Of a stretch of DNA of 64,000 nucleotides, positions 32,212-63,817 are shown piece after piece. Position numbers and translations under genes: made by a program. The DNA comes from Thermoclostridium sp. (lineage in GTDB: Bacteria > Bacillota > Clostridia > DSM-8532), in the NCBI GenBank assembly GCA_017995215.1, contig JAGOJH010000002.1, forward strand, positions 1 through 64,000, written 5' to 3'. The notes beneath the pieces are model-generated. The model was not told the origin of the DNA and did not search any database. It worked only from the letters and a program-made list of their open reading frames with translations. How positions within the stretch are numbered: position 1 is the first letter of the stretch; the number at the start of each line of letters is the position of its first letter.

Positions 32212-32273
32212 CCTCTTTTCTGGTATAATTGAGTCTACCACAACACCAAAATACCGAAAGGAAGTGTCATTGT

Positions 32274-42940: not shown

Positions 42941-45289
42941 TCAATCGCTGATTATGCTATTGGACTGAAGCAAGTCTCTATAGTCCTTCAAATAATCAAT
43001 CTGTAAATCGTATGGGCTATAAGTGTTCTGTTTCATCAGATAAACAACATAGATATCATCCTCATAGAAAACCTTGAAGTTGCGGGGGTACATCTGTTCG
43101 AATGCTTTTGCCCAGTAATATGCCTGTGACTGAATCACCGCGCGCTGATAATCGTAATCCAGGATATTTCTCATAAAGGTAAAATCTTTCGCCGCATATT
43201 CCGGTGCCACCCTAACCTTTCCATAATTGTAATCCTTCAGTACTTCTTTTTCAATGAAGAAGAAAACATAATCCGTGGTAAAGTAAAATTTCTCCTGTTT
43301 TCCATTGACCATATTCACAAACTCGGAAAGCTCCGTATGCCTTCCATGATCAATAACATCATAGTATTCGTCGGTGGGTGATACGATAGTGTAAGAGTAA
43401 ATCGGATACGTTTCTTTGACATTTCGCAGCACATACACCGGTTCATTATAATAAGCCTGGTATACCCCAAAAAAGTCATGATACCAACCCATATTGATGA
43501 TTAAAATGATCACAAGGGCACAGTTTGCCAAAGACAAGAGCCTTGTTATGGTCTGCCAGGATCGGCTTTTCCAGTAGGCCATCATGCAGAAGATAAAATC
43601 AACCGGGAGCACATATATCAAACCTTCAAGGGGCTGCGCAAAGGCTGATATCCTGCCAACTTGAATCAACTCCGGAATGCCCAATGGCCCAGATGCGCCA
43701 AAGGTAAACAGAATCATCATTGTGAGAGTCATCGCAAGGTAATCGTGCCCATTGTTCTGAGTTTTCTTCATCAAAAGCATGATGAGAGCACATAATAAAC
43801 CGATACCCAAACAGACAAACAACCATCGGGTTGGTTCTCTGCCGTGCATTGCGCTAACGCCGAAATCAAATATGGAATCGTAATAATATTTTATAATCGC
43901 CTTTACTGACATCCTGGAGTGATTCGTTTCATCCTTCACAGTTGTATCCGGTTCGACTCCTGAAATCGGTTCCTCGCTTTCTATGGATTCCTCATTTTCT
44001 ACAGATTCTTCGCCCACCGTTGCAGACAACTTGTCCTGGTAGTCCTCTCCCGATCCATGCCACTCTTCGCCGGACATCACCGTCGTTGCCCAGTCAATGG
44101 ATCCCTGAAACGGAATACCCTTCGCCAGTGATAATCCAATCGGTGTTATCGCTATCAGGGCTCCCATCAACCCGCTGAACATCAAAGGAATAAAATACTG
44201 TTTCCTGAATATCCTGGGGATATATGCCAATCCTATCGCAATCACCAGAAAAGCTGCGGCTATAGCCGTATAATAATGATAGTTAATGACTAAAGAAACA
44301 CTGAGCATCAGAAGAAGCATCTCCGAGCTGATATATCTACGGTTGACATAAGCATTCAACCATAATAAACCGCGTTTTTTTGATTCCCCTTTGATCTCGA
44401 ACCTTTGAGGGTTGGTATGCAGATACCGAAGCATGAAGTATGCCAGGCCAACAACTGCAAACATACCGGCTTCCTGGGGAAGAGAAGCCGCATAACGGCC
44501 CTGATTCAGCATTAGGCTTGTGATCAGGATTACAGCTATTGGTGTATATTTTCCCGTGAAGATCTCCTTTGCCAGGAAATATACGCCCAGAATCAATATA
44601 ATAAACTGGTATGACCCGGCATACAGAAGAATTTCACGCAGGTTATAACCGAATATAACGCGAATGAAATAAATCATGGCATGCATGCCAAAGGGATAGA
44701 TTCCATCAGGAAATAAGGTGCCCTGCTCCAGTTCATAAATCCAGGATTGGTGCACTGGTATATCGGAGGCCTGATAAGAATGATAATGCATCACATTGTG
44801 TGTAAAAAACCAACCATTATAGATGATAATGCCGGCAAGCAGTATCATCTCCAACCAATGTTGCTTGAAGTGCTCCCAAATCGTCCAGCTTGATATGGAT
44901 CTGTACATTTTTTTCAGCCAGTCTGTCAGAGACTGCCAAATATATCGGAATAGCATTTCTTCCTTATAAGCGCTCCAAAGACTCCCCACAAAGCTTTTAA
45001 TGCGGGATAAACCTTTCTTATCAGAGTAATTCCAGATAATTAAAAGATACACGACCAGGTTGGAGCCAATAACCGTCCAACGGTTACAGATATTCAGGAT
45101 GCCCAGCAGCAGTACCAGATTGATCTGAAGAGCGGCCTGCGTGATGACGCAGAACCAAAAGCGGTAGCCCCAGGTCCTACCCTTCAGATGCTTGTTCCAC
45201 ACGAAAAGAGGGATTAAGAAGTCCCGTATGATGAAGGCTATAAACACCTGAACCAATGAAATCACATAAGCACCAGTATCAACAATCAC
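42941..45289 (-). CDS. large polytopic membrane protein of the polysaccharide operon
   Basis: A 782-residue protein with roughly 14-16 membrane helices. It resembles GT-C glycosyltransferases or polymerase-type envelope proteins in size and in the early loop HSYQASDIPVHQSWIYELEQ followed by a YPFGMH segment, but no catalytic motif can be proven. A Glu-rich insert (about 415-455, EESVENEESIESEEP) lies between membrane segments. The C-terminal 180 residues are soluble and probably outside. The start is a GTG at 45289 with AGGAG at 9 nt. It is the last gene of the operon and may glycosylate, polymerise or modify the polymer. Confidence 0.7.
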   Translation of the reverse strand: MIVDTGAYVISLVQVFIAFIIRDFLIPLFVWNKHLKGRTWGYRFWFCVITQAALQINLVLLLGILNICNRWTVIGSNLVVYLLIIWNYSDKKGLSRIKSFVGSLWSAYKEEMLFRYIWQSLTDWLKKMYRSISSWTIWEHFKQHWLEMILLAGIIIYNGWFFTHNVMHYHSYQASDIPVHQSWIYELEQGTLFPDGIYPFGMHAMIYFIRVIFGYNLREILLYAGSYQFIILILGVYFLAKEIFTGKYTPIAVILITSLMLNQGRYAASLPQEAGMFAVVGLAYFMLRYLHTNPQRFEIKGESKKRGLLWLNAYVNRRYISSEMLLLMLSVSLVINYHYYTAIAAAFLVIAIGLAYIPRIFRKQYFIPLMFSGLMGALIAITPIGLSLAKGIPFQGSIDWATTVMSGEEWHGSGEDYQDKLSATVGEESVENEESIESEEPISGVEPDTTVKDETNHSRMSVKAIIKYYYDSIFDFGVSAMHGREPTRWLFVCLGIGLLCALIMLLMKKTQNNGHDYLAMTLTMMILFTFGASGPLGIPELIQVGRISAFAQPLEGLIYVLPVDFIFCMMAYWKSRSWQTITRLLSLANCALVIILIINMGWYHDFFGVYQAYYNEPVYVLRNVKETYPIYSYTIVSPTDEYYDVIDHGRHTELSEFVNMVNGKQEKFYFTTDYVFFFIEKEVLKDYNYGKVRVAPEYAAKDFTFMRNILDYDYQRAVIQSQAYYWAKAFEQMYPRNFKVFYEDDIYVVYLMKQNTYSPYDLQIDYLKDYRDLLQSNSIISD

Positions 45290-45306
45290 TTATCTTCTCT
45301 CCTTAA

Positions 45307-46752
45307 TTATTGACGTAAAGTTTGAATCATGTCTTTTAAACTCAAATATTCTTTACGGATCAATATCAAATATAAACTGCACCCGGCAAGATAAACAGCA
45401 CCGCCGGCACAAACCTGAATTAAAAGCAGCAGCGGCGGGTTTATCGGCAGGCCGGAAAGCGCATAGGTTACTGCAAACTCTGCTGAACCACATAACAAAA
45501 ATGGGAGAAGCACCTTCACCAGCTGGCCGAAGCTGTAAATCGATCGGATGCGGTACATTTGATAGGCACACACTGCCAGTTCAACGATAAGTGTTCCAAT
45601 CACAGCCCCGGAGGCCCCATAAACCGGGATAAGGATCAGGTTCAAAACGAATTTGGCTGCAGCTCCCAGGGTTACCGATTGGATGAATACCTTCTCCTTT
45701 TTAAAAGGGATCAGATATTGTGTCTGCACAACACTGTTAATGCTCATCGGAATCATTACGATGGCAAGCTCCATGGTTAAGAGTATTGTCGGCGAGAACC
45801 CCGGTCCCAAAAACCATGGCATAAATACTGTTGAAACACCGGCAATGCCAAAGCAAAGAGCACAGCTGACAAAGCTGTTGAATCGAAGAGAATTCCGCAT
45901 TTTTTGCAGGCCTTCCTCTGCTTGTTCCCGGGCAACGAGACCGGATATTCTAGGAAGCATGACCGCATCCAGGGCAGAAAGAATTCCCTTGGGCAGGTTA
46001 ATCATGTATTCAGCATAGGTATAAAATGCAACAATTGCAGTACTGCCGGCCATTACACCGAGCATTATCCTGTCCATCCAATGGTACATGCTCAACGCCA
46101 GCAAGGGGATAAACAGCTTAATATTCGGCAGGATATGGCCTGCGATATCCTCTCTTCGGAGGGTGACTCTTTTTACCTGATGCAGTAAAAAAGGAATCAG
46201 CTGCAGCTGCTCGAACAAAAAGCAGGCTGACATGATCCCGGTGTAGATCCACAAATCCGATTCCGAGTGCACAAAGATAAATACACCTGCGATGATCAGA
46301 AGCCTTGCGATGACACTGCGTATCGTAACAATTTTAAATTTTTCCATCCCGTAGAAAAACCAACTGACATCAAATAAAGCAGACCCTACATACAGCAGCT
46401 GTAACCAATAGATCATCCTGTTCTCGCGGAACACTGTGAGGATCAGCAAAGCAAATATCAGAATGGATAAAACGGAGGTGATCAGCTGCAGGATGAAAAT
46501 ACCCCAAAACACCCTGCTGCGCTTTTCAAGGTCATCCCTGCAGGAAGCGATGCTCCAATTCCCATAGTTATCAAGACCCAGCTTTGCAAGCATGATAAAA
46601 TAACAGGCCACAGTGCTGGAGAAAGCATACAGCCCCACCTGCTCGGCACCCAATACGCGGGCAACGTAAGGGGTTACAATCAGGGGCAGTATTAAAACGG
46701 ACAAACGGTAGATCACACTATAAGTATAATTTCTCTTCTCTTCTGCATTCAT
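45307..46752 (-). CDS. Wzx-like polysaccharide flippase
   Basis: A 481-residue MOP-superfamily membrane protein with about 14 helices. The start YSVIYRLSVLILPLIVTPYVARVLG is typical of RfbX/Wzx lipid-linked oligosaccharide flippases (LPLIVTPYVARVLGAEQVG). Its presence next to PelG, a flippase-like member of the same superfamily, is unusual. It lies 17 nt upstream of the large membrane protein and 37 nt after the LRR-glycosyltransferase, all in one direction. Confidence 0.88.
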   Translation of the reverse strand: MNAEEKRNYTYSVIYRLSVLILPLIVTPYVARVLGAEQVGLYAFSSTVACYFIMLAKLGLDNYGNWSIASCRDDLEKRSRVFWGIFILQLITSVLSILIFALLILTVFRENRMIYWLQLLYVGSALFDVSWFFYGMEKFKIVTIRSVIARLLIIAGVFIFVHSESDLWIYTGIMSACFLFEQLQLIPFLLHQVKRVTLRREDIAGHILPNIKLFIPLLALSMYHWMDRIMLGVMAGSTAIVAFYTYAEYMINLPKGILSALDAVMLPRISGLVAREQAEEGLQKMRNSLRFNSFVSCALCFGIAGVSTVFMPWFLGPGFSPTILLTMELAIVMIPMSINSVVQTQYLIPFKKEKVFIQSVTLGAAAKFVLNLILIPVYGASGAVIGTLIVELAVCAYQMYRIRSIYSFGQLVKVLLPFLLCGSAEFAVTYALSGLPINPPLLLLIQVCAGGAVYLAGCSLYLILIRKEYLSLKDMIQTLRQ

Positions 46753-46789
46753 TTTATTCTTTCTGCTCTCTATAATATGGTTCAGTTAT

Positions 46790-48712
46790 TTATTTCCCGT
46801 CAATTTTGATCCGGGTATGCTTTTCAAATGCAGTCGGTGATATCACGATATCCCCGGCGAATATGACGACATCGGTCAGCATGGGACATTTCCTGAAGGC
46901 CTGATGATTGATGGATAGAACCTTTTTCGGTATTTTTATAAACTTAAGTTTGGAGCACCCATAGAACGTACGAATATTGATTCGCTCCAACGGGTTCGGC
47001 AGTTGGAAGTAAGACAGTGCCTCGCAGTACAGAAAGGCACCTTTGCCTATACTCTCCAGAGAATCTATCTGAAGAAGCGCAAGGGTTTCAAGCTTATAAC
47101 AACCGGAAAATACATACTCTCCCAAGCGCTTCAGGCTGGTCAATACGACTTTATGAAGGTTGCTGCAGCCTGCAAAAGCACCTTCATCAATAAGCTCCAG
47201 GATGCTGTCGGCTCCAAACTCTGCTGCAGAAAGGCTGCTGCAGCCTGCAAAGGCATAACGCGGAATTATACGTATGGCTACCGGAAAAGTGCTGCTGTTC
47301 TGCATATTCTCGTTTCCAAGGTTTCTAAACAACAATTGTCTTAACGAAACGCAGCCCGCAAAGGAGTATTTTCCTATTTGCACCAGTGAGGATGGCAGGT
47401 GAATCTCTTCCAAAGCCCTGCAGCCTGAAAAGGCATACTCACCAATTTTTGTCATCCGGCTTCCCTTTTCAAGAATAACCTGGCGCAAATTGCAACAACG
47501 CTGAAAAGCATGTGCTTGAATCTCCACTACAGTATTCGGAATCCGGATGGAAATCAATTGCTCGCAGCCATAAAACAAACCTCTCTGAACCACTGTGACA
47601 CCAGCCGGGATCACAATGTTTCTCTGCTCGCTGTTCATCGATAATTCCAATGCACTTAGCTGCTGGTAATGTCGGGCTGATAAAAAGGTTACGGTCTTTT
47701 CCCGCACTTTTTCCACAGGGTATACCCTTTCCGGTTTTATAGGCTTTAGAGGTTGGCCTTTGGACATCCGTTGTAAAACATCGCGAAGTCGTAAGCAGTC
47801 TCTGATGATGGAAAGCTCCCTCCGAAGCCATCGAAGGGTAATCCTCATCATAAGCCCCAGTTTCTTCAGCTGCGAAAGAATTGTCCGAACAGGCGCTGTT
47901 ACAAAGTACATCACAATGTAAATCATATAATCCAGCCACATAAAATTGATTTTGGCCAAATGTATCATTCCTGTATAAAACTCCTGTTTCAGCTTCCTAT
48001 CCAAGAGCAGTAAATCCAGATATTTCATGCGAAGCCTTTTACAATCCTGAAGCAAGGTCCATTCATAATCCATATGATCTGAGGTTATTATCGTTTCGCA
48101 CAAATAGTCTTCTGAAACATGGACCCTGTAGTTCCTGCTTAATCGAAGGATCATATCCAAATCGCAATAATTTACGAATTGTCTGTCAAAACCACCCGAT
48201 AGCTGAACGGCTTCAGTGGAATAAATCACCTGGGCTGACATTTTTATCGGAGGATATACAACCCATCTTGCCGGATCCCGGTCAAGGGTCTCAATCAGAG
48301 GGGTTATGGAAACACTGGCTTTTCTCTCATCCCTCAGAAGACCATTCGCACAGGATGCCGCTGCCTCCGGGTTTCCCTTCAACTGATGGATCTGATATGA
48401 AGCCATGTCCGGATCCCACTGATCATTCGCACTTAAAAACGCGATGTATTTTCCCGTCAGGTTTTCAAGCATATGGTTGCGAATTTCAGCCATGGATAAC
48501 GACTGATCCAACTTTAAGTATTGAACCTGGGGATATGAGGACAGATCCTCCTGAAGTCCAAGACTGTATGCGCTATTTTGCTCGTTCGCGTCCACCACGG
48601 TAACCTGAATCGGCGAGTATAACTGCTGAAGAACACTATTTAGTGTATTCAGGAACCTTAGGGAGGTATTCTTTTTTACAACGATGACGACATTCAGCAA
48701 TGCATTTGTCAT
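46790..48712 (-). CDS. family 2 glycosyltransferase fused to BspA-type leucine-rich repeats
   Basis: A 640-residue protein. Residues 1-230 form a GT-A glycosyltransferase fold (NVVIVVKKNTSLRFLNTL, VTVVDANEQ, then YIAFLSANDQWDPD where the usual LDxDD metal motif has only the last Asp). A helical, partly hydrophobic segment follows (about 245-330, IYIVMYFVTAPVRTIL). Residues about 365-635 hold nine or ten BspA-like repeats (IRIPNTVVEIQAHAFQRC, IGEYAFSGCRALEEIHLP, IGKYSFAGCVSL). BspA repeats normally bind extracellular proteins. No signal peptide is present. Its ATG overlaps the stop of the DUF4832-type gene by 4 nt. Confidence 0.85.
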   Translation of the reverse strand: MTNALLNVVIVVKKNTSLRFLNTLNSVLQQLYSPIQVTVVDANEQNSAYSLGLQEDLSSYPQVQYLKLDQSLSMAEIRNHMLENLTGKYIAFLSANDQWDPDMASYQIHQLKGNPEAAASCANGLLRDERKASVSITPLIETLDRDPARWVVYPPIKMSAQVIYSTEAVQLSGGFDRQFVNYCDLDMILRLSRNYRVHVSEDYLCETIITSDHMDYEWTLLQDCKRLRMKYLDLLLLDRKLKQEFYTGMIHLAKINFMWLDYMIYIVMYFVTAPVRTILSQLKKLGLMMRITLRWLRRELSIIRDCLRLRDVLQRMSKGQPLKPIKPERVYPVEKVREKTVTFLSARHYQQLSALELSMNSEQRNIVIPAGVTVVQRGLFYGCEQLISIRIPNTVVEIQAHAFQRCCNLRQVILEKGSRMTKIGEYAFSGCRALEEIHLPSSLVQIGKYSFAGCVSLRQLLFRNLGNENMQNSSTFPVAIRIIPRYAFAGCSSLSAAEFGADSILELIDEGAFAGCSNLHKVVLTSLKRLGEYVFSGCYKLETLALLQIDSLESIGKGAFLYCEALSYFQLPNPLERINIRTFYGCSKLKFIKIPKKVLSINHQAFRKCPMLTDVVIFAGDIVISPTAFEKHTRIKIDGK

Positions 48713-50136
48713 AGTCCACCCTTTAAACCCTTGCGGGGAAACAGGATTACTTTTCTAACCCCATGATTTCTATTTATTTGCACATGACCCAGGCTATAGT
48801 ATCCCTGATGGTCTGTTGCCGAAAAGGTGTTTGCAATCCCGATCGCCTGTTGTGATCGGGGGTCAAAAATTCCAAAGCACAAAAGATATGGGGTTGTATT
48901 CCATTCTTCCGTGGGCAGTTCGGCTTCAAGCTCAACCGGCACGTCCGGCATCCAGAAGCGTGTATCTGTATTCACACCGTATTCGTATAGCTGCGAATAC
49001 TTTGTATCCCGGACAGCTATTTTCACATCAAATCGATGATAACACGGAGAAAAACCCTTATTGCATAACCGGATACCGATCTTGATATGGTTTTCCCTTG
49101 TAGTGTGGGCAGAAAGCTTCACCTCCTGGATGGTAAAGCGATAACCCAAATGTGCTGTGATGTATTCAAACGCGGTTTTGTTCTGCCACAGGGGATCCGC
49201 AGAACCGGATTTGGTGGCTTTCCATTTGTCCAGCACCTGCTGATCATATTGGTCGTGCAGGTAGGATATTCTCATCTTCCTGAAGCTCTCTATGGCCGGG
49301 GCTGCATCATTATACACGTTATCATTAAAAACTTCACCACCATTTGAAACATATCGGCACAGTTCGTTCTGAAACTCCAGTTCATCCTGGCGCACCCATT
49401 TATCTCCGTACTTTTGTGAGTCGCAGGCATAGATGACACCATAGGTTCCAAAATCAGTTTCGGAGGCCAGCAGCCCATCATTGAACAGGGAGAACCGGGC
49501 TTTTTGACGCTCCAGGTAAGCGGTTTCGGAATTGAGTGGCCGGTCGGTTCTAAAGACCATTCTCCAATAGCTGGGGCACCGGAGTGCAATTTGCGTGTCC
49601 CCCCCACTGCAGTCATACAGCTGTTTTGCCAAACGTGTGATATACCTGTCGCTGAGATAGCGGGAATTGTGCATTTCTCCCCAGCTGCCAATAAAAAGAC
49701 CCTGAAGAATGTAAATGCTCCGGGTATATTCTTTCAGAGCTGCCGACAGCTGCTCCATATGCTGTAAGATATCACCGATATCTTTCGGCTCACTGAAGAT
49801 ACCCTTGCCCTCCCAATCGTAAACAAAGCGTAAAATCAGGTGCCTGCCTTTAGAGGTAAAATACTGCAGGATCTTCCTGATGTTCTGCAATGCTTCTGCC
49901 GACAGGGGCTTATCATTAAAATGCAACAGATTAATCTCTACAAGACAAAGCCGATGTCCTGGGTCGATCGCAATCTCATCAAGTGCGGTTCCCTGATCCT
50001 GGCAGGTGCTTTCCGCATAAAAACGGAAGATGGAATACCATCCGCAATAAGGGTTGTTCAAAGCCTCTGCTTTTTCTGTTCTCGGCAGGGGAATCCATTT
50101 CACTTTATTCGCTTTCCCAATTTGCGGCATAATCAT
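48709..50136 (-). CDS. DUF4874/DUF4832-type glycosidase-like protein
   Basis: A 475-residue protein. The N-terminal 300 residues look like a TIM-barrel sugar-acting domain (NPYCGWYSIFRFYAE; HLILRFVYDWEG; ILQGLFIGSWGEMHNSRY), as in DUF4874. The C-terminal 140 residues form a beta-sandwich as in DUF4832 (ENHIKIGIRLCNKGFSPCYH). The conserved GSWGE with its Glu is the likely active-site strand. No signal peptide is visible, odd for a glycosidase acting on an exported polymer. AAAGGTCA precedes the ATG. Confidence 0.75.
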   Translation of the reverse strand: MIMPQIGKANKVKWIPLPRTEKAEALNNPYCGWYSIFRFYAESTCQDQGTALDEIAIDPGHRLCLVEINLLHFNDKPLSAEALQNIRKILQYFTSKGRHLILRFVYDWEGKGIFSEPKDIGDILQHMEQLSAALKEYTRSIYILQGLFIGSWGEMHNSRYLSDRYITRLAKQLYDCSGGDTQIALRCPSYWRMVFRTDRPLNSETAYLERQKARFSLFNDGLLASETDFGTYGVIYACDSQKYGDKWVRQDELEFQNELCRYVSNGGEVFNDNVYNDAAPAIESFRKMRISYLHDQYDQQVLDKWKATKSGSADPLWQNKTAFEYITAHLGYRFTIQEVKLSAHTTRENHIKIGIRLCNKGFSPCYHRFDVKIAVRDTKYSQLYEYGVNTDTRFWMPDVPVELEAELPTEEWNTTPYLLCFGIFDPRSQQAIGIANTFSATDHQGYYSLGHVQINRNHGVRKVILFPRKGLKGGL

Positions 50137-50144
50137 TGACCTTT

Positions 50145-50900
50145 CTATGAAATATTGCCCTTCTGCAACCCTCTTTTCACCCTGATAACCACATTCATGA
50201 TGCTCAGCGGCATGATCAGCATATACGCAAGCTGCTTCAAAAGCCCCGTATGCATGCTGACTCCAGCTGTTCTTTCATACATTATGGCCGGGGTCTCACG
50301 AATCCGAAACCCCAATAGCAGCATTTGAATGATCATATTGGCATCGGGATAAGTATAATCAAAATTTCCAAACCTGGAATAATACAGAAAGGCTTTACGG
50401 TTTAAAGCCTGCAGGCCTGAGGTCGGATCGGTGATGACCCGGCCGGTGAAGCTCTGAATCAACCACGAAAACCAGGAAAGTGAGCACTTTTTCAGCGCAG
50501 ATATCCGATAAGCCTCGCTTCCCTTTAAGAATCTGGACCCAATGACGATATCAGGCATGTTGCCATCAGAATCGGGGGTTCTGAGGCATTCATACAAGCT
50601 GGCTATGTTGCTGACGCTGTGCTGCCCGTCGGCATCCAGCTGAATAACATACTCATAAAGATGTCTCGAAGCGTATTTGTAACCAACCTGCAAGGCAGAA
50701 CCATAACCCAGGTTGAAAATATGCGTGATCAGCAATACATCATAAGACCGTGCAATCTGTTTGGTACGATCACCGGAAGCATCATTGATGACCAGAATAT
50801 CTGCAAAGCTTCTGATCTCAGGTTTGCACAGTTTATCAAACAAGCTCTCGATATTTTTTTCTTCATTATAGGCAGGAATAATAATCAATACCTTGTTCAT
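50145..50900 (-). CDS. family 2 glycosyltransferase (DPM/polyprenyl-phosphate type)
   Basis: A 251-residue GT-A enzyme: IIIPAYNEEKNI, then INDASGDRT, GYGSALQVGYKYA and the metal motif QLDADGQH. This resembles dolichol/polyprenyl-phosphate sugar transferases that load a sugar onto a lipid carrier. The C-terminus has one hydrophobic stretch (LAYMLIMPLSIMNVVI) that may associate with the membrane. I start at the ATG at 50900 with GGGAG upstream; the longer frame overlaps the previous gene. It could supply donor sugar to the large GT-C-like membrane protein. Confidence 0.9.
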   Translation of the reverse strand: MNKVLIIIPAYNEEKNIESLFDKLCKPEIRSFADILVINDASGDRTKQIARSYDVLLITHIFNLGYGSALQVGYKYASRHLYEYVIQLDADGQHSVSNIASLYECLRTPDSDGNMPDIVIGSRFLKGSEAYRISALKKCSLSWFSWLIQSFTGRVITDPTSGLQALNRKAFLYYSRFGNFDYTYPDANMIIQMLLLGFRIRETPAIMYERTAGVSMHTGLLKQLAYMLIMPLSIMNVVIRVKRGLQKGNIS

Positions 50901-50919
50901 GCTTCTCCCGTCCCCTCTT

Positions 50920-52131
50920 TCAGTCGGCCATCGCCAGTAAATCTTCGAGATCCTCCGGATGATCAATCTTTTTTGTCCGGGCTCGCTGTGCGTAATTTTT
51001 CCGTAATTCCGGATGGTCTATCAAGTGCTCCAATTCACGAACCAAATTGTCGACATTTAACGCAAGCAGGACCCCATCATAACCGGGCTCAATCTGTTCG
51101 GTATTCCCTGTACAATCTGATGCAGCAATCGCTTTCCCTAACACCTGGGCTTCTTCAATGGCAATGCTCTTTCCTTCAAAGCGTGATGCCTGCACATAAA
51201 TATCGGCTTGCTGCATATAGGGATAAGGGTTGTCCTTTTTCCCCATCAGAATAAATGAATCCTCTACTCCATGCTTCCTGATTAACGCTTCCAGATTGGC
51301 TCGTTCCATCCCCTCCCCTATGATATACCACCGTATGCGATAACCATCACGAATCATTCTTGCTAAAGCTTTGATGGCAATATCGTAACCTTTCTGATAA
51401 TGCAAGCGGCCAACGGTCACGAGGCGTATTCCGTCAAAAGCATCCGTGAACCCTTTACCCTCTACAGCCTTCTTTAAAATTTCCTCCCTGTCCAGCAGAT
51501 TCCGAAACAATCTTACCTTATCCCTGTATTGCGGGTAAATGCTGGAAAACTTATCTCCCACCGCATTGGAGACTGCATAGATCCTGTCCATCTGCTCGTA
51601 GCAACCCTGATCCATAAAAGGTGTGTACCCGGCCATCTGATAATCGATATGGATGAAAGCTGCCTTGTGGCGGGCGGTTACTTTTTCTGCCAGAAAATAT
51701 GCAGCCGCTCCTTCAATATAGGACACTGCCAAATCGTAGTTTCCTTTCATGGGTTGTCTTCCAACCGCAAGAAGCCTCCAGAGAAGCTTATCGAGTTGCA
51801 GCTTACGGCCTGTCTTCCTTTGCTGACGGATATTTTCTATCATATGTGGGAGCAGACGAATGCCTGTAAATTGATAAAAAAACGAAGCCGCCACAGTGCC
51901 TGCCTTTCGAAGATATCCGGAAAACGAGAATAGGGAGCTTTTGCTGAAATTCTTGTTCAGCACATGAACGCTCTCTGGTACTCGTTCAAACAGCTCGCCA
52001 CAGGGGAGAATGACATAAAGAAAAAGTTCATATTTCGCCATTGAATCCAACCTTTTCAGCAGGTTAATCAAGGCTGTCTCCGCTCCGGCCTGGCCCATGG
52101 TGTTGATGATAAACAGCAATTTCTTCTTCAT
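50920..52131 (-). CDS. family 4 (GT-B) glycosyltransferase
   Basis: A 403-residue retaining glycosyltransferase. The N-terminal Rossmann half opens KKKLLFIINTMGQAGAETALI; the C-terminal half has VTVGRLHYQKGYDIAIKAL and the EGKSIAIEE motif (E-x7-E) that binds the nucleotide sugar. Cytoplasmic, probably adding a sugar to the repeat unit. The start is the ATG at 52131 with AGAAGG six bases upstream, which lies inside the preceding DUF2304 gene: the two frames overlap by 68 nt, far longer than elsewhere in the operon. Confidence 0.9.
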   Translation of the reverse strand: MKKKLLFIINTMGQAGAETALINLLKRLDSMAKYELFLYVILPCGELFERVPESVHVLNKNFSKSSLFSFSGYLRKAGTVAASFFYQFTGIRLLPHMIENIRQQRKTGRKLQLDKLLWRLLAVGRQPMKGNYDLAVSYIEGAAAYFLAEKVTARHKAAFIHIDYQMAGYTPFMDQGCYEQMDRIYAVSNAVGDKFSSIYPQYRDKVRLFRNLLDREEILKKAVEGKGFTDAFDGIRLVTVGRLHYQKGYDIAIKALARMIRDGYRIRWYIIGEGMERANLEALIRKHGVEDSFILMGKKDNPYPYMQQADIYVQASRFEGKSIAIEEAQVLGKAIAASDCTGNTEQIEPGYDGVLLALNVDNLVRELEHLIDHPELRKNYAQRARTKKIDHPEDLEDLLAMAD

Positions 52132-52561
52132 TCTCAACCTTCTCCATATTCTTCTGTTCTCCCAGGAAAGTCAGACTTTGCACGAGAGACTTCTCCGCCA
52201 TGACGATTTTCTTCAGTTGAACATTCTCATCATTTAGCAGGGAAACCTGCATGGCAAGCTCCTGTACTCTGGCAGCCAGCTCCGCGTTTGTCCTGTAGCA
52301 GTTAAAAATACCATAGAATACAAGCATGATGGAGATCGCAAATATGATCGATGGCGGATACTCGACCGAAAACAAGTCTGAAAGCAGGAATACCAGCCGG
52401 GGAATCAGCCCAAACAGGATGATGATCATTCCCCCTATTATCCAGAACAAGCTTTGCTTTTCCGTCATTTTGCGTACGATATTGGCCTTTCTGGCTATGT
52501 AGATAAGCGTAATGCCTGCCAGGCAAACTAAAATTCTAAGTCCTATCGACATGCAATTCAT
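52064..52561 (-). CDS. DUF2304-like membrane protein
   Basis: A 165-residue protein with three membrane helices (about 5-20, 38-60, 70-87), then a coiled-coil segment (NAELAARVQELAMQVSLLND). The pattern fits DUF2304, small proteins found next to GT2 polyprenyl-phosphate sugar transferases in envelope polysaccharide clusters. The C-terminal 35 residues, encoded in the overlap with the downstream glycosyltransferase, are acidic then His/Gly-rich and look non-conserved. Confidence 0.8.
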   Translation of the reverse strand: MNCMSIGLRILVCLAGITLIYIARKANIVRKMTEKQSLFWIIGGMIIILFGLIPRLVFLLSDLFSVEYPPSIIFAISIMLVFYGIFNCYRTNAELAARVQELAMQVSLLNDENVQLKKIVMAEKSLVQSLTFLGEQKNMEKVENEEEIAVYHQHHGPGRSGDSLD

Positions 52562-52574
52562 CCCTTCCTTCCGC

Positions 52575-54083
52575 TTACTTGATTGTTGTTGCCTGGGTTG
52601 CAGCAGAAGCAGTTTCAGTTAGGAGCTCCGCCCCTAAAGCCCCGGTATATACATTGTAAACATCTGCCTTTGGCATCTGTTCATTTACCTGTTTAATTAA
52701 CGTACCCCTGCAAAAAATAAGGTTATCAATGTTCCTTTCAATCCACCGCAGCCTGAAAAACGAGAAGGTAAAAGCCAGAAAGGCTGCAGCTGTAAACCCT
52801 GTCCCATACCATATGGCACTGAACTGAGATGCCAGCACAGAGCCTGCAAGTGATACACCAGCAAAAATTATACCATTAATCATGGCACCCGTACGGTCAT
52901 CGAAGTAGTAAAGAAATAACAGCTCGGAATACATTAAAAACGATATAAAAAAGCCAACTGCCAGCTGCGGATAAATCTCCATGGTTAATCCTGAGAATCC
53001 CATCGTCGGCAAAATACCAATCGCAATAAAATAAGCAACCACCGATACAAGAAACTGAAGATGTACGAGAGAGAGCAGCTGGGAGGAAAGCCCCTGGAAC
53101 ATCCTCTGTTTTGTTTTCTCAATGGTTTCCAATTTACCGCCAATCACGGCCTCCATATAGCCCCGGTATCTTTCATGGAAATGCATCTCCACTCGGGAGA
53201 TAAAAAACACACTGGCCGAAATATTTGTAAACATGGCAAGGGAAGAAGCCATATCATAGGGTTGGTTGCAGACAAAGGTGCTGCGAACCACCAGGTGCCA
53301 GGGCTGTGCCCAGAACACAAAATTGTGAACAAAAAGCCCGAAGGCATAGAGGAAGTTTGAGGCAATCAGCTTCCAGTATATCCTGTAATAATGAAGCACC
53401 TCTCTGTATTTGCAACTGTTTGCAGGGAAATACCGCAGCACATTGGAAAGCTCCAGCGAAGCTATCAGTAAAAAACCCAGGGATAAGGCCAATAACATGC
53501 TGTAGGTAATGGTAAACCTGAAAATATAGTGAAAAAGCAGTGATAATCCAAGAGTCAGCAACATGGAGCAGATAAAATAGACAGAAATCCTTTTGTATTG
53601 CTTCAGGATGGAATTATACACCATCGTGGCAAAGGTCAGGGTACACCCCAGGTACCCCATAAAGGCGGTAAATATATAATAAACTTCTATTTCTCCCACC
53701 ACCACTGCGTAAATGCAAAAAGGAACTGCCAAAAGAGTGGAAAGGGTCAGATTTGTAATCGTTCCTACATAAATGCAAGGCCGGATGTCCTCGTATCGCC
53801 GCTCGTAAATCCTGTCAGTCTGGTACTTCGATAAAACCGAATTGAAGGGAGCTGCAGTTAGCAGAGAAAAAATAAAGATATACAAAATGCTACAGGAAAA
53901 GGTTTCTCTCTCTATATAGCCAACCGTATCAAACTGCAGCAGCTTGAACATTGCCAGTAAGCATCCGATAACTGCCAGCATTGGTGCGATGGTATAGGTA
54001 AAGCTGAACCCAACACCATAGAGGGACGAGGTTATGGTTCGCCTGCCGAATATTTTATTCAGTTGTACGCCAATGCCCGCCAT
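52575..54083 (-). CDS. pelG: PelG-like exopolysaccharide export protein
   Basis: A 502-residue membrane protein with about 12 helices, opening MAGIGVQLNKIFGRRTITSS as in PelG. In Pel systems PelG is a MOP-superfamily protein that forms the inner-membrane complex with PelD, PelE and PelF and moves the polymer across the membrane. The conserved loop EMHFHERYRGYMEAVIGG is present. It lies 22 nt after pelF. The Gram-positive version needs no outer-membrane export genes, and none occur here. Confidence 0.92.
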   Translation of the reverse strand: MAGIGVQLNKIFGRRTITSSLYGVGFSFTYTIAPMLAVIGCLLAMFKLLQFDTVGYIERETFSCSILYIFIFSLLTAAPFNSVLSKYQTDRIYERRYEDIRPCIYVGTITNLTLSTLLAVPFCIYAVVVGEIEVYYIFTAFMGYLGCTLTFATMVYNSILKQYKRISVYFICSMLLTLGLSLLFHYIFRFTITYSMLLALSLGFLLIASLELSNVLRYFPANSCKYREVLHYYRIYWKLIASNFLYAFGLFVHNFVFWAQPWHLVVRSTFVCNQPYDMASSLAMFTNISASVFFISRVEMHFHERYRGYMEAVIGGKLETIEKTKQRMFQGLSSQLLSLVHLQFLVSVVAYFIAIGILPTMGFSGLTMEIYPQLAVGFFISFLMYSELLFLYYFDDRTGAMINGIIFAGVSLAGSVLASQFSAIWYGTGFTAAAFLAFTFSFFRLRWIERNIDNLIFCRGTLIKQVNEQMPKADVYNVYTGALGAELLTETASAATQATTIK

Positions 54084-54105
54084 TTCATGCCCGCCTTTCT
54101 GTTCG

Positions 54106-55578
54106 CTATAAACAAGCCTTCATCTTTGGAACAAAGGTTTGCTCCGAATAATCCACATGACTCATTTCTGCCAGAGTTTTGTAGATTTTCCGGTAGGTTT
54201 CCTCCATGTATACGCTTTTATATCGGGCCATGAGCCGCCGATATCCGTTTTCACCCATCTGCACGGCCATCTCGGGATGATTCGCCAGCTTCAGGATCGC
54301 ATTTGATATTTCCGAGATATTCATCACCGGTACTATAATCCCTGCTTCTCCGAAGAAATCACCTTCGCCATGGATTAAACCATGACAATTACCCACATTG
54401 GTGGCGATGCAGGGCTTTTTCGCAGCAAAGCCCTCCAGGATTGTCAGGGGCTGACCTTCACTGATGCTGGTCAGTATGGTCATATCCATCCTGCCAATAT
54501 GGTCTGCAGTACGAATTTTTCCGGTAAATACTATGTTTTCTGCTTTTAACGCGCTGACCAGCTCATGACATTCCTGCGCATACTCGGGATTTTCGTCCTC
54601 AGGTCCCATAATCCACAGCTTTAGCCGGGGCTGCTTCTTATGGGCATAGTAAAATGCGTTTATCATGGTTTTTACATCCTTAATCGGTGTGACGCGCAAG
54701 ATTGCACCGACATGAATGTGAGGATCCCCCGGGTCCTTCCCTGGTATATCTGCATATTGCTCCACGTTGATCCCATTGGGGGTAACAATGGCCTTCGAAA
54801 GGGGACATCCCAATTCTATCTGGAGGGACTGTGCTGTCTGAAACAGCGATGTGACTAAATCTGCAAAGTAATATGCCCCTCTGGACATCTTGCGGAACTG
54901 TTCAATCCATATGATTTTGTAAATGCTTTGAACCCATTTCGCCTTAATGATTTCCTCTTCACGTTCCCGGGTGTAAATACCATGTTCACTGATCAACAGC
55001 CTGGCCTCCGGATAAAGGGACAACGCCTTGCTGCCGATAATGCCTGCGTATCCGGTTGATACGCAATGATATACATCTGCCTTCGGTGGAATGCACTTCA
55101 ATGCAAAGAATAATGGCAGATAGATAGAGCGCAGGGTCCACAAAAAATCCGAAAAAGTAATATTCACGTACTTCTTCTTGTAGCAATCCTTTGTAATGGA
55201 TAAAAATTCAGGGCTCATCAGGATATTGTTCACAGAAATATTTTCTCGTCCGAACAAATGAAAAACCGTCACCCAGTCCACTTCTTCACCAATGACCAGG
55301 CTTCTCAGTGCTTCCACTTCGCGTTTTTTCAAATGAATCCGGTTTCGGGGGCCCTTGTTGTTACCAACCCAGTCCACATCCTGTAAATAGACCTCATGCA
55401 CCTGTGTCAGATTGTCTGCCAGCTCATATGTAAACTTACCGCTGGTGCTGCGATCGGATATCACTGTAACCAGAAGGAATTCAATATTGGGGAACAGCCG
55501 GATCATGTTGTGGATCCAACTGGATACACCACCGACAACATAAGGATAACAGCCTTCTGCAATAAAGCATACCTTCAT
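54106..55578 (-). CDS. pelF: PelF-like glycosyltransferase
   Basis: A 490-residue GT4 enzyme, opening MKVCFIAEGCYPYVVGGVSS as in PelF, the cytoplasmic polymerase that uses UDP-N-acetylhexosamine to make the Pel backbone. The donor half has GAILRVTPIKDVKTMI, IMGPEDENPEYAQEC and EGQPLTILE (E-x7-E). Its start overlaps the stop of the DUF2194 gene by 4 nt, so they are coupled. PelF is the only obvious synthase in the pel part of the operon. Confidence 0.94.
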   Translation of the reverse strand: MKVCFIAEGCYPYVVGGVSSWIHNMIRLFPNIEFLLVTVISDRSTSGKFTYELADNLTQVHEVYLQDVDWVGNNKGPRNRIHLKKREVEALRSLVIGEEVDWVTVFHLFGRENISVNNILMSPEFLSITKDCYKKKYVNITFSDFLWTLRSIYLPLFFALKCIPPKADVYHCVSTGYAGIIGSKALSLYPEARLLISEHGIYTREREEEIIKAKWVQSIYKIIWIEQFRKMSRGAYYFADLVTSLFQTAQSLQIELGCPLSKAIVTPNGINVEQYADIPGKDPGDPHIHVGAILRVTPIKDVKTMINAFYYAHKKQPRLKLWIMGPEDENPEYAQECHELVSALKAENIVFTGKIRTADHIGRMDMTILTSISEGQPLTILEGFAAKKPCIATNVGNCHGLIHGEGDFFGEAGIIVPVMNISEISNAILKLANHPEMAVQMGENGYRRLMARYKSVYMEETYRKIYKTLAEMSHVDYSEQTFVPKMKACL

Positions 55579-57479: not shown

Positions 57480-57509
57480 ATTATACTCTCATCCTCAATA
57501 AAATTCACT

Positions 57510-58427
57510 TTATCTCTGCTCAATGTACATTTGCATTAGTTCTGCCACCTCATTATCAGCGGTGATCTGTGAGCTCACCAGCTCATTCAGGCATTTATAA
57601 AATGCACTGTAATGATGCTGTTCAAAAAACAAATGCAATTTAGCCTTGTAAGTATCGAGCATATCCGGGCGATACTGACCGGCCCTTGAGCTCCATTTTT
57701 CTGCCATACTGAAATTTCTGATGGAAATAAACATATCGGTCATCCGCAGGTAATGTGTTGCAGTCATATACCACAAATTGTAGGTAAAAAGGTTTTCAGC
57801 CACATCATCCAGGGTGAATATATAAGCTTCCTGCTCGACACCGGATAGGATTTTCAGGCTGAGAAATTCATAGATATAGTCAAAGGTCAACAGATTCATT
57901 TCTACATCTTCAGGGATTTTCTGCATTTTTTCAATCATGTCTTGAGCCGCAGAACGCAGTTCGGATAAAACATCCATGACCATTGTGGCAACATAATGAG
58001 AGGTCTCGGTATCCTGGCTGTTCATGGCAGCAGCAATGCTGGAGATCTTATTCTTTACGTTGCTGAGCATCGTATTTAATAAGAGTCTTCTGAGGCTTGC
58101 TGTATCGGATATTGCTATTGCATCATGGATGGGCACGTAATTCATTTCCGCACTGATATCAGGGGGTAAAATTAATTTTTCTCTCTCCTGGCTGAAGCTA
58201 ACATCACTCATATCCACATTCTGATTACGGATGAAATAGTTGATCATGAAGCTTAGCAGCAGATATACAGCGCCAATTAAGGGTACGATAAAGATAAACC
58301 ATGACAGCAATACTGCAGTGCTGCGTTGTTCCGCTTTTTGAAAGAAGGATGCAGCAAATATCAGTATGGCCAAAAGGCTATTCACTGTTAATATAATAAT
58401 AACCGGATAAAGGCCTGCCGTATTCAT
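57510..58427 (-). CDS. pelE: PelE-like membrane protein
   Basis: A 305-residue protein with two membrane helices (about 8-27 and 37-60), followed by a soluble helical region with TPR-like character near the C-terminus (WSSRAGQYRPDMLDTYKAKL). In Pel systems PelE is the inner-membrane TPR protein that bridges PelD, PelF and PelG. I assign it mainly from topology and its place between the pelD-like and deacetylase-like genes. Confidence 0.75.
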   Translation of the reverse strand: MNTAGLYPVIIILTVNSLLAILIFAASFFQKAEQRSTAVLLSWFIFIVPLIGAVYLLLSFMINYFIRNQNVDMSDVSFSQEREKLILPPDISAEMNYVPIHDAIAISDTASLRRLLLNTMLSNVKNKISSIAAAMNSQDTETSHYVATMVMDVLSELRSAAQDMIEKMQKIPEDVEMNLLTFDYIYEFLSLKILSGVEQEAYIFTLDDVAENLFTYNLWYMTATHYLRMTDMFISIRNFSMAEKWSSRAGQYRPDMLDTYKAKLHLFFEQHHYSAFYKCLNELVSSQITADNEVAELMQMYIEQR

Positions 58428-58478
58428 CGTTACTCCTTAAAGCTGGTTTCAATCATTTGAACTAAGCTTGTTTTGTTT

Positions 58479-60644
58479 TCAAAGTAATTGGGTCGTAATA
58501 TTCTCTCTCTCCAGACGCTCCTTTACATGGATGGACTCGTTTTTATTGGTGTTGGTTAATAAAATTGCCAGATTGCCGTCAGGCCTTTCACCAATATAAT
58601 CGGTTTCCCGGAGTAATGGGTGTATCTTGTCGTTAACTTCCTTTAGCGACAGGTTTCCTCTTTCAATAAATAAAATACAGGACTCTGCATAGCCATTTTC
58701 TTCTGCACGTTTATAGATACTCATCATCTCTTCAAAAGCTGTATCCTGCAAAATCGAAGTGTCGGGAATGTACCGGCGGTAGGCCAAAGCATCCAGGTAG
58801 TTGGCATCCCGGACAAAAACAGAATACACCAATGCCCCCACAACGGTGAGCAGATTTGCATAATACAAAGTCATTTTTTCATACGGAAGGTTCCAGAGAA
58901 AAATGACGATTCTCATGTTACCCTCGTCGCTGAAAAGAGAACTGGCCATCATGGGCAGAGAGCTATCCAGCGTGCGGTTTGTGTATACCTGTCCTGACCT
59001 TAATATCTCAAAAATCACCCCATATTCATCTATAAGAAGGGTTTTACCCAAAGACGCAGCCTTACTGTCTGACGAGGATACCAAACGACAGTACTTTTTA
59101 TTGGATATCAGGTAAATAGAGACCCCCTCTGTCTCCATGATCTCTTTAATTGTATCGAGAGCAGCAAACAAAATTTCTCCCTTTTCTGACTTTTGCAGCT
59201 TTGAGGTTATGCCATAAATGCGGCCGATACTTTCTCTGCTGCTGATGAGCTTATCTGAGTAATAATCCTTTATTTTAGCGTTGCTGGAGTTTATCACTGA
59301 AATATCTTTCAGCTGATCTTTCAGAAAATTAACTTCTTCATCCATTTCATCCTTCGTTTCCTTGAATTTGTCCTTTAAATGGCCAACGGATAATCCAACA
59401 AGAAAGATTTGCACAATCTGAAGGTATGTATCGGCCTCTATCAGGAAGGAAACATTTGTTGAATGAAGCACCTGGCTTAAGGTTAAGCCAATGGCGCTGA
59501 GCAGGGAAGTAAATATTGCCATCTGTCTGCCATACATGAGGGCAAAGAGCAATACATATAACAAATAAAAATGAATGCTGGCAAAAAACCGGCTTTCAAT
59601 GGTGCCATGACTGAACAGAAAAACCAGTATAAACATTACAATACCTTCCACAAAAGGCAGAGCTTTATGCAGCAGGCGGATAAACGAAGACTTATCTCCG
59701 TTTGTTTCTATGGATTCGCCATCTTGCAGAAAACGCTTTTTGTGGTGATTAATGTAAGTGATTATTGAGGGGATCATTTCCTCCCATTTACAATTCAAGC
59801 TCAGCGGAAATTCGCTGCGAAATCTCTCATTGGACAATATGAATCTTTGTTTTAATCCCACGGTTTGATCGACAACCTCAACATCCTGTATACAATGGGT
59901 TTTAATCACCTGTGCGACCTTATCTTCTGTGACCTCTTCCATGGAAGAAATATGATACAAATGATGTTTTCTCTCCGGTGCCTGTATCAATAAAAAAAGT
60001 GCTTCCACCGCATCTTTTACACACAGGCCGGAAAATACCCTTTTGGCATTGATGCGTAAGCGTACGTTCACGATCGCTTCAACACACATTCTGGAGAAAA
60101 TGTCGCAGCATCCGCTCCTGTCTTTCGGAATTCCATACATTTGGGATAACCTTACAACCGTAACCTCCATCTGTGCGGATTGTCCATAGTGAAGCGCAAG
60201 ATCTTCGCCCTGAGCAATAGCCATACCCTTATAGCTGTTGGGAGAAACGGGCATATTTTCTTTAATATCAACAATATATTCATCTTCGAAAACTATCTCT
60301 GAAGAAATATAAACAAAATGCCGGACACCTTGAAGTGAGACAGCGATGAGGATATTGCTGAGATCTGCTGTATAGCTTAAAGCAGTGTCATTGTTTTCAC
60401 TGTTCCAATGGTAACAGGAATCATACGCACCGGAAAAAAGAACTACATCCGGTCGACAGCTCGCAACGATTTCCTTGATGCTGTCACTTTGATAGTCAAA
60501 AACATATTGTTCAAACACGTGAAGCGGCTTCAGAAGCTTCTTGTTGCTTATCAGTGTATAAATATGCCACTTTTCAGTGTGAAGCTTTTCAATTAAATGA
60601 TTTGTTAAAGGATTATAATCTCCTATGATTAAAATATTTGGCAT
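58479..60644 (-). CDS. pelD: PelD-like cyclic-di-GMP receptor with degenerate SDR domain
   Basis: A 721-residue protein. Residues 1-300 form an SDR/epimerase-like fold that has lost its motifs: the Gly-rich loop reads IIGDYNPLTNHL, and the YxxxK site reads PNSYKGMAIA with no Lys. Four membrane helices follow (about 325-425), a coiled coil (about 430-470), a GAF domain (about 485-615), and a degenerate GGDEF domain whose motif is PDGNL (688-692). The inhibitory-site RETD (679-682) is intact at the right spacing, so it should bind cyclic-di-GMP without making it, as PelD does. It is the first gene of the polysaccharide operon, with an attenuator-like terminator in its leader. Confidence 0.88.
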   Translation of the reverse strand: MPNILIIGDYNPLTNHLIEKLHTEKWHIYTLISNKKLLKPLHVFEQYVFDYQSDSIKEIVASCRPDVVLFSGAYDSCYHWNSENNDTALSYTADLSNILIAVSLQGVRHFVYISSEIVFEDEYIVDIKENMPVSPNSYKGMAIAQGEDLALHYGQSAQMEVTVVRLSQMYGIPKDRSGCCDIFSRMCVEAIVNVRLRINAKRVFSGLCVKDAVEALFLLIQAPERKHHLYHISSMEEVTEDKVAQVIKTHCIQDVEVVDQTVGLKQRFILSNERFRSEFPLSLNCKWEEMIPSIITYINHHKKRFLQDGESIETNGDKSSFIRLLHKALPFVEGIVMFILVFLFSHGTIESRFFASIHFYLLYVLLFALMYGRQMAIFTSLLSAIGLTLSQVLHSTNVSFLIEADTYLQIVQIFLVGLSVGHLKDKFKETKDEMDEEVNFLKDQLKDISVINSSNAKIKDYYSDKLISSRESIGRIYGITSKLQKSEKGEILFAALDTIKEIMETEGVSIYLISNKKYCRLVSSSDSKAASLGKTLLIDEYGVIFEILRSGQVYTNRTLDSSLPMMASSLFSDEGNMRIVIFLWNLPYEKMTLYYANLLTVVGALVYSVFVRDANYLDALAYRRYIPDTSILQDTAFEEMMSIYKRAEENGYAESCILFIERGNLSLKEVNDKIHPLLRETDYIGERPDGNLAILLTNTNKNESIHVKERLERENITTQLL

Positions 60645-61181: not shown

Positions 61182-61508
61182 ATGAAACGAAGTTTATTGG
61201 GCTATAAGGTTTCAGAAGTGAATGCGGTCCTGGATGCTCTCCGGGAAGAGAACGAAGCATTAAATGCTGCTATAATCACGCTCAAAACTCAAGTTAAAAA
61301 TAATGCGATCGAAAAAAGTGCGAAGAGCATTTTATTGGAAGAAGAACTTGAGCAATGTAAAAAGAAGTTAATCGTTCTGAATCAAAAAATTGATTTGCTT
61401 GAACTGCAAAATGAAGAATACCTCATAAAGATTGAAGCTTTGACCAATGAAAACAAAAGCTTAATGAAGCAGTTAGCCGACCCTCATTTATCTAAATTTG
61501 ATGACTGA
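61182..61508 (+). CDS. small DivIVA-like coiled-coil protein
   Basis: A 108-residue protein. The N-terminus SLLGYKVSEVNAVLDALREE resembles the DivIVA/GpsB membrane-binding motif (GYxxxEVxxFLD), and the rest is an almost unbroken coiled coil to residue 95. DivIVA-like proteins bind curved membrane at division sites or poles and recruit partners. This one is short and could locate the neighbouring envelope machinery; that is inference. AGAGGAAG precedes the ATG. It stands alone, divergent from the pel operon. Confidence 0.8.
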   Translation: MKRSLLGYKVSEVNAVLDALREENEALNAAIITLKTQVKNNAIEKSAKSILLEEELEQCKKKLIVLNQKIDLLELQNEEYLIKIEALTNENKSLMKQLADPHLSKFDD

Positions 61509-62936: not shown

Positions 62937-63223
62937 TTCAATATTCCTTTCTCTTTCAGGTATGCTTCCATTCCATTCTCTATTAACTGATCAAGGAATT
63001 CGTTCACATCCGCCAATGCTTCTTCCGGACCAATGCCATACTTTCTTTGAAGGAGTACCGATAGCTCCTTTACACTTGATCCCTTTTCAATCCTTTCCCA
63101 TAGAATAGCTCCGCATTCATTGGTTGCAACGGGTCTGATATATTCCTTCCGCTGATCGGCTTTAATAATCCAATACATGCCTGCAGCATGTCTGATGAGA
63201 TAGTTCAGTTTATTTGCCATCAT
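62933..63223 (-). CDS. PqqD-family protein
   Basis: A 96-residue small winged-helix-like protein. The pattern (DQRKEYIRPVATNECGAILW, then VKELSVLLQRKYGI, DVNEFLDQLIENG) matches PqqD, a peptide chaperone that presents a precursor to a modifying enzyme. No radical-SAM partner is in the window. Overlapping stop/start (ATGA) with both neighbours shows a three-gene operon: S26 peptidase, PqqD, nucleotidyltransferase. Confidence 0.88.
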   Translation of the reverse strand: MMANKLNYLIRHAAGMYWIIKADQRKEYIRPVATNECGAILWERIEKGSSVKELSVLLQRKYGIGPEEALADVNEFLDQLIENGMEAYLKEKGILK

Positions 63224-63687: not shown

Positions 63688-63817
63688 AAATTTTCCTGTT
63701 CTGTCAGACATCTATTGAATGATTAAAGCGACAAATACAGCTTTTCTTTAACTCGTTTATGGCACACAAGTTCCCAGAGCGAAGAATTGTGTCCTTCTTC
63801 GACACTATTTTTAACTT

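Follow-up and report, generated by a model that had tools for sequence, protein, structure and literature searches.

The locus described here raises the question of whether a Gram-positive Pel operon that runs on into a set of further glycosylation genes encodes one polysaccharide or two. It lies in the window, a 64,000-nt stretch of contig JAGOJH010000002.1 from Thermoclostridium sp., where twelve co-directional genes occupy the minus strand from 60644 to 42941. A preliminary description had read them as pelD-pelE-DUF2194-pelF-pelG followed, in the same direction, by DUF2304 and further genes up to a large membrane protein, and had suggested a second polysaccharide module with a decorated or two-polymer product. 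Order and direction are confirmed, with no gap above 51 nt, and the genes are as follows.

58479..60644, minus strand: pelD, with an N-terminal degenerate SDR/epimerase-like domain (PF04321/PF01370 matches), membrane helices, a GAF-like region and a degenerate GGDEF domain
57510..58427, minus strand: pelE, assigned by position and by homology to the pelE of relatives; two transmembrane helices
55575..57479, minus strand: pelA-DA (DUF2194; PF09960, 54.7 bits), predicted pseudo-deacetylase
54106..55578, minus strand: pelF, GT4 polymer synthase with EX7E motif (NF038011, 346 bits; PF11997, DUF3492)
52575..54083, minus strand: pelG, exporter and first flippase-like protein (PF16933, 429 bits)
52064..52561, minus strand: DUF2304 small membrane protein (PF10066, 60.5 bits), putative GacJ/WpsB-like helper of GT2
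50920..52131, minus strand: GT4 glycosyltransferase (PF00534, 97.8 bits), possible elongator of a lipid-linked side chain
50145..50903, minus strand: GT2, polyprenyl-phosphate-sugar synthase by profile (71.3 bits)
48709..50136, minus strand: DUF4874-DUF4832 glycoside-hydrolase-like protein without signal peptide (PF16173 and PF16116, 152 and 168 bits)
46790..48712, minus strand: GT2 domain fused to BspA-type LRR_5 (PF00535; PF13306, LRR_5 197 bits)
45307..46752, minus strand: Wzx-like flippase, the second flippase (PF01943, 102 bits)
42941..45289, minus strand: GTC, GT-C-type glycosyltransferase of 782 amino acids (AF2 model and Foldseek; no Pfam or NCBIfam match)

GTC is the label used here for the last gene of the operon; its product had rightly been noticed as a large membrane protein and is better named a GT-C-type glycosyltransferase. 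The identification of pelD also stands, with the correction that the protein additionally carries the N-terminal SDR/epimerase-like domain. In this domain (residues 1-300 of the protein encoded at 58479-60644), the glycine-rich nucleotide motif is altered and the YxxxK pair is missing from its expected place, which resembles what has been reported for other clostridial PelD proteins. The GT2-LRR protein (46790-48712) has no predicted export signal and is restricted to the window's branch of the subtype defined below. NCBIfam gave no name to DUF2194, DUF2304, DUF4832 or GTC.

One operon and its relatives

From 5' to 3', the intergenic gaps measure 51, 30, -4, 22, 13, -68, 16, 8, -4, 37 and 17 nt. 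The largest separates pelD from pelE, while the proposed junction between the two halves, pelG/DUF2304, spans 13 nt. The 68-nt overlap of DUF2304 with GT4 corresponds to a C-terminal extension; a frameshift at this place was considered and ruled out, since the near-identical contig L016 has the same reading. The halves are not divided by any recognisable internal terminator or promoter: no terminator-like site was found in the pelG/DUF2304 gap, and promoter-like matches in the region are at chance (42, against 43.0 +/- 5.8 in shuffled sequence). Upstream of pelD, neither a c-di-GMP riboswitch nor any other RNA was found at the Rfam gathering score.

The operon is flanked by a divergent small DivIVA-like gene upstream and by a convergent gene downstream. 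The DivIVA-like gene (61182-61508, plus strand) encodes 108 amino acids; in relatives from Herbinix and Anaerocolumna (L017, L019), the gene in this position encodes 355, so the copy in the window may be shortened. Just upstream, genes at 61716-62936 and 63220-63711 on the minus strand encode NTP_transf_5 (PF14907) and S24 signal-peptidase-like proteins, whose homologues lie inside or beside the pel locus in many relatives of the subtype and are sometimes fused to a flippase or a GT2. The same contig holds an IS6-family transposase-like gene at 32229-33704, with a match below the curated cut-off.

The possibility that the contig had been binned into the wrong genome was rejected, because its EF-G is 96% identical to that of a same-genus genome and its tetranucleotide composition fits. 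That same-genus genome (G002) has a different, cotH-type pel cluster, and in the other one (G001) no pel cluster was found. The closest versions of the operon come from Herbinix, Anaerocolumna and related Lachnospiraceae records (PelG 69-75%). An empty insertion site was sought in the same-genus genomes and none could be located, as the flanking DUF2201 gene was found in no relative. The operon was likely gained horizontally.

Whether the two halves belong together was addressed by a PelG alignment scan of 84,980 species genomes, which gave 442 relatives; the best 80 of these were taken with flanks of up to 10 kb, and 49 of the 80 had enough context on both sides. Among these 49 full-context relatives, GTC and GT4 are present in all, DUF4832 in 48, GT2 in 47 and DUF2304 in 45, and none has one half only. 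The genes cotH, VTC and DUF4956 are absent from the window and from all 49. The order seen in the window, with GT2-LRR, Wzx and GTC downstream of pelG, occurs only in its own branch (Herbinix, Anaerocolumna and a few more); elsewhere GTC lies between pelE and DUF2194 (27/49), upstream of pelD (1/49) or after DUF4832. Junctions are tight, as the pelE-GTC gap is at most 100 nt in 28 of 28 pairs and the pelG-DUF2304 gap has a median of 3 nt (at most 100 nt in 39/42). In parallel, the protein distances of the added genes co-vary with those of PelG (Mantel r 0.60-0.78, p 0.001). In a PelF tree built by a quick method, in which some outgroup branches are long, all 76 rows of the subtype and of truncated loci group in a single clade (SH-aLRT 99) that is separate from the cotH-type sequences. 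The tail of the operon is variable, with GT2-LRR and Wzx in the window and, elsewhere, a Stealth phosphotransferase, another flippase or nucleotidyltransferase fusions; a second flippase was recognised in at least 29 of the 49 relatives and none in the other 20.

By gene content and phylogeny, the locus is one Pel operon subtype, forming a PelF clade separate from the cotH/VTC/DUF4956 clusters. The single extended operon of the preliminary description is supported, with small gaps at all junctions. Its picture of a second module is wrong in detail, because genes of the supposed second half are interleaved with pel genes in relatives, the gaps are small, the distances co-vary and PelF forms one clade.

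The added glycosylation genes and their putative acceptor

The genes added to the Pel core resemble a known type of machinery. The AF2 model of GTC (17 homologues, pLDDT 77) retrieved only GT-C proteins among its first 16 Foldseek matches (DPY19, AglB, PglB, ALG12, AftA, ALG9, Pmt4, ArnT, AftB), with a TM-score against any single structure of only about 0.3-0.5. Residues D176, H180, W183, G196, Y198, P199 and H203 are invariant in the 17 homologues and at least 95% conserved in 63; in the predicted topology, D176, H180 and W183 fall in the first large loop, which fits the acidic loop motif that GT-C enzymes would be expected to carry. By profile, GT2 matches the polyprenyl-phosphate-sugar synthases (DPMS, PDB 5mlz, E 1.2e-21; ArnC; GtrB), and the aspartates of its DxD motif, D90 and D92, are invariant. 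DUF2304 was recognised by PF10066 in 11 of 11 homologues. This domain has been described as typical of GacJ-like proteins (PMC8327497), and GacJ and WpsB stimulate GacI and WpsA, the enzymes that make C55-P-GlcNAc (PMC10821137). Four components make up the Gac system: GacI, GacJ, the Wzx-type flippase GacK and the GT-C enzyme GacL (PMC8035078). In lactococci, cytoplasmic glycosyltransferases first extend this same lipid product, which is then flipped and transferred by a GT-C enzyme (PMC10821137). The window has a polyprenyl-phosphate-sugar synthase profile (activity predicted), a DUF2304 partner (complex predicted), a Wzx-type flippase and a GT-C fold with D176. Taken together, GTC, GT2, DUF2304 and Wzx are, as judged from profiles and models, the components expected of a transmembrane glycosylation system of the GacIJKL/Wps kind, and the natural reading of the extra GT4 by analogy with lactococci is that it lengthens the lipid-linked sugar. 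The GacIJKL and lactococcal WpsA-WpsB-WpsG-WpsJ systems share these four kinds of component with the window (PMC8035078, PMC10821137) but decorate a rhamnan cell-wall polysaccharide, whereas the set in the window sits in a synthase-dependent Pel operon.

The acceptor of GTC could be another surface polymer. GT2, DUF2304, Wzx and the GT-C enzyme might glycosylate a cell-wall polymer, an S-layer or another glycoprotein and be merely co-regulated with Pel, as comparable systems do with teichoic acids and with polysaccharides of the cell wall (PMC8035078). A separate survey, covering 391 genomes from the same class, bears on this point. PelG exceeded the cut-off in 15 genomes and GTC was found in 6, with the two close together in 3 (G000, G226, G209). 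Four of the 6 GTC genomes have GTC among pel genes; one of them, G314, carries it within a pelD-pelE-GTC-DUF2194-pelF stretch in which pelF is cut short, and no PelG was found in that genome. In the other 12 PelG genomes GTC was not found, and 9 of these 12 have cotH beside pelG. The remaining two GTC genomes (G079, G330) have no PelG and carry, near GTC, a GT2, DUF2304, a PelF-like DUF3492 glycosyltransferase and a MurJ-like flippase. From this distribution, GTC, GT2 and DUF2304 are a unit usually, but not only, attached to Pel. The preliminary description had named independent occurrence of the halves in relatives as evidence that would count against it. No full-context relative of the clade shows this, but a smaller unit of the GT-C, GT2 and DUF2304 genes is found without PelG in 2 of 391 genomes. 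These two genomes favour a different acceptor; against it, even their loci retain a PelF-like glycosyltransferase, GTC lies among pel genes in most GTC genomes, and it belongs to the pel locus of every full-context PelG relative. A non-Pel acceptor therefore seems unlikely, though it is the alternative that fares best.

Some incomplete or Pel-free loci are of note in themselves. At L122:5722-15227, a pel locus is broken off in pelF and followed by reading frames of 441 and 1558 amino acids, in a genome with no PelG. The clusters at L123:1803-11891 and L124:5584-15695 combine a PelF-like DUF3492 glycosyltransferase, a MurJ-like flippase, a GT-C protein, a GT2 and DUF2304 in a Pel-free setting, and are possibly an undescribed cell-wall or exopolysaccharide system.

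A second alternative is that the genes after pelG make a separate, Wzx-dependent polysaccharide, so that the operon would serve two polymers. The Wzx-like flippase, GT2, GT4 and GT2-LRR are what such a pathway would draw on, and some relatives add Stealth phosphotransferases and further glycosyltransferases. Neither an initiating phosphoglycosyltransferase nor a Wzy-type polymerase was found among the 12 operon genes, however, which makes a second polymer less likely than decoration; GTC resembles GT-C transferases and not polymerases or ligases, and both its frequent place between pelE and DUF2194 and the lack of any half-operon in the clade speak against a self-standing pathway. The two-polymer product of the preliminary description thus finds no support, and we rate it as improbable. 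Decoration of a Pel-type chain fits the GacIJKL/Wps-like part list better, and to that extent the decorated product proposed earlier is upheld as a prediction from sequence and models.

The DUF4832 gene is a Pel-cluster gene and a known Pel accessory. In Streptococcus intermedius, Pel aggregates are broken up by the DUF4832 protein SIR_1591, a glycoside hydrolase anchored in the membrane (PMC12345266). In the window protein, D107, E154, D220 and E268 are invariant and are likely the catalytic acids. Unlike the known Pel hydrolase with its N-terminal membrane helix, this putative Pel hydrolase has no export signal: in 53 of 54 loci the DUF4832 copy beside GT2 lacks a hydrophobic segment at its N-terminus, against 28 of 37 other copies that do have one. 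Two paralogue types can thus be told apart, one cytoplasmic-looking and fixed beside GT2 (48709-50136 in the window) and one secreted-looking and placed elsewhere in many relatives (loci L031:15098-16564, minus strand, and L053:16940-18466); the window genome has one DUF4832 gene only.

Loss of the deacetylase site in PelA-DA

The core genes tell apart what the subtype has kept of Pel and what it has lost. PelF and PelG are adjacent and belong to the expected families (DUF3492 GT4; PF16933), with the PelF EX7E motif retained in 74 of 74 sequences. The PelD RxxD site (R679-D682) and R710 are each at least 95% conserved among 64 homologues, and c-di-GMP binding by PelD may be inferred by analogy with R363, D366 and R395 of B. 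cereus (PMC7112168). The deacetylase domain behaves differently. In B. cereus, PelA-DA requires an Asp pair (MT1), an HxxxH motif (MT2) and a His (MT5), and mutants in MT1 and MT2 make no detectable Pel (PMC13254593). In the subtype (n = 69), the first MT1 Asp, the MT2 His pair and the MT5 His are each present in 0 of 69 proteins, so that the complete residue set of Gram-positive Pel is lacking, whereas 9 of 11 other-type DUF2194 proteins keep the MT2 His pair. The DUF2194 proteins of cotH-type and other clusters mostly carry IDDFP, HGYNH and SHFxHPDD. They match PDB 9zau, which we take to be the solved B. cereus PelA-DA, with E 5e-118. The loss was agreed by two methods, MAFFT and hhalign, the latter aligning separate subtype and active-type profiles with a probability of 99.9 and E 8.7e-31. 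The AF2 model of the window protein (pLDDT 85.8) has the human N-deacetylase NDST1 as its best solved fold match. The preliminary description had passed over this motif loss.

On these alignments the deacetylase of the subtype appears dead, and, since the rest of DUF2194 is conserved, the protein probably serves at the PelG exit as a subunit for binding or guidance. Catalysis of a new kind, such as acyl or glycosyl transfer through S381 and D491, is the weakest of the alternatives and quite improbable: the serine at the first MT2 His position (62/69) and the aspartate at the MT5 His position (60/69) are themselves conserved, which argues against simple decay, but the protein matched no known family that has such a pair, and the other invariant positions are for the most part structural (G, P, W, Y). 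Loss of the site is not unique to the subtype, as the cotH-type DUF2194 proteins at L012:3788-5662 and L127:8243-10063 lack all or part of the motifs, respectively, which makes repeated loss of Pel deacetylation possible.

A proposed route and what it would mean

Compared with the pelDEADAFG operon of B. cereus ATCC 10987 (PMC7112168, PMC13254593), the subtype shares the five core genes and their order, the PelD RxxD site, the PelF EX7E motif and the PelG family, but its PelA-DA is devoid of catalytic residues and GT-C, GT2, DUF2304, GT4 and DUF4832 are built in. With the cotH-PPP(VTC)-DUF4956-DUF4832 clusters of streptococci and clostridia (PMC7112168, PMC12345266), it shares the epimerase-like N-terminus of PelD, accessory genes contiguous after pelG and a DUF4832 gene. 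These clusters have no GT-C, GT2 or DUF2304, their PelA-DA mostly keeps HxxxH and their DUF4832 has an N-terminal membrane helix, whereas the subtype has neither of the latter two traits and no cotH, VTC or DUF4956. In the portions considered here, the 2020 survey describes the cotH group and places Roseburia pel genes in a larger capsule/teichoic-like cluster of unclear function, possibly non-functional or unrelated to Pel (PMC7112168, S7 Fig). Two Roseburia MAG loci (L040, L041) read pelD-pelE-GTC-DUF2194-pelF-pelG-DUF2304-GT4-GT2-DUF4832, and the Roseburia locus of that survey is probably of the same subtype; those portions mention neither the loss of the deacetylase site nor a glycosylation logic. 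A search of open-access journal articles returned no account of the subtype.

Starting from what is directly seen (which genes are present, how they are conserved and interleaved, which folds are predicted and which catalytic motifs have been lost), the reading we favour, with somewhat better than even confidence, is that of one operon of a distinct Gram-positive Pel-type subtype, in which the chain is decorated by a built-in lipid-linked route and PelA-DA is a pseudo-deacetylase. Along this route, c-di-GMP bound at the PelD RxxD site would activate PelF, and PelD, PelE, PelF and PelG would make and export the backbone, to be received at the PelG exit by the inactive PelA-DA. GT2 and its DUF2304 partner would load a sugar onto undecaprenyl phosphate (C55-P), the presumed lipid donor, and GT4, together with GT2-LRR in the window's branch, may extend it. 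The Wzx-like protein would then flip the lipid-linked sugar or oligosaccharide, and GTC would transfer it to the emerging chain, its putative acceptor, outside the membrane. The expected product, with its chemistry read from the genes, would be a non-deacetylated, branched Pel-type polymer. We suggest only tentatively, and with some doubt, that gut and anaerobic Clostridia of one large clade produce Pel with a dead PelA, GT-C branching replacing deacetylation as the export-coupled modification.

A clade that has lost the PelA-DA site and kept PelD, PelF and PelG offers a direct test of whether export strictly depends on deacetylation or accepts another modification in its place. The subtype also predicts that common gut bacteria have a lipid-linked decoration route inside a synthase-dependent exopolysaccharide operon; records of Anaerobutyricum, Roseburia, Dorea, Acetatifactor and Coprococcus are among the relatives. 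Cultured relatives with the subtype include Anaerobutyricum hallii DSM 3353 (L067), Schaedlerella arabinosiphila (L061) and Herbinix hemicellulosilytica (L021). The charge of Pel comes from deacetylation. If the tentative suggestion above is true, the same backbone machine would give a neutral, branched polymer and not the cationic, adhesive Pel.
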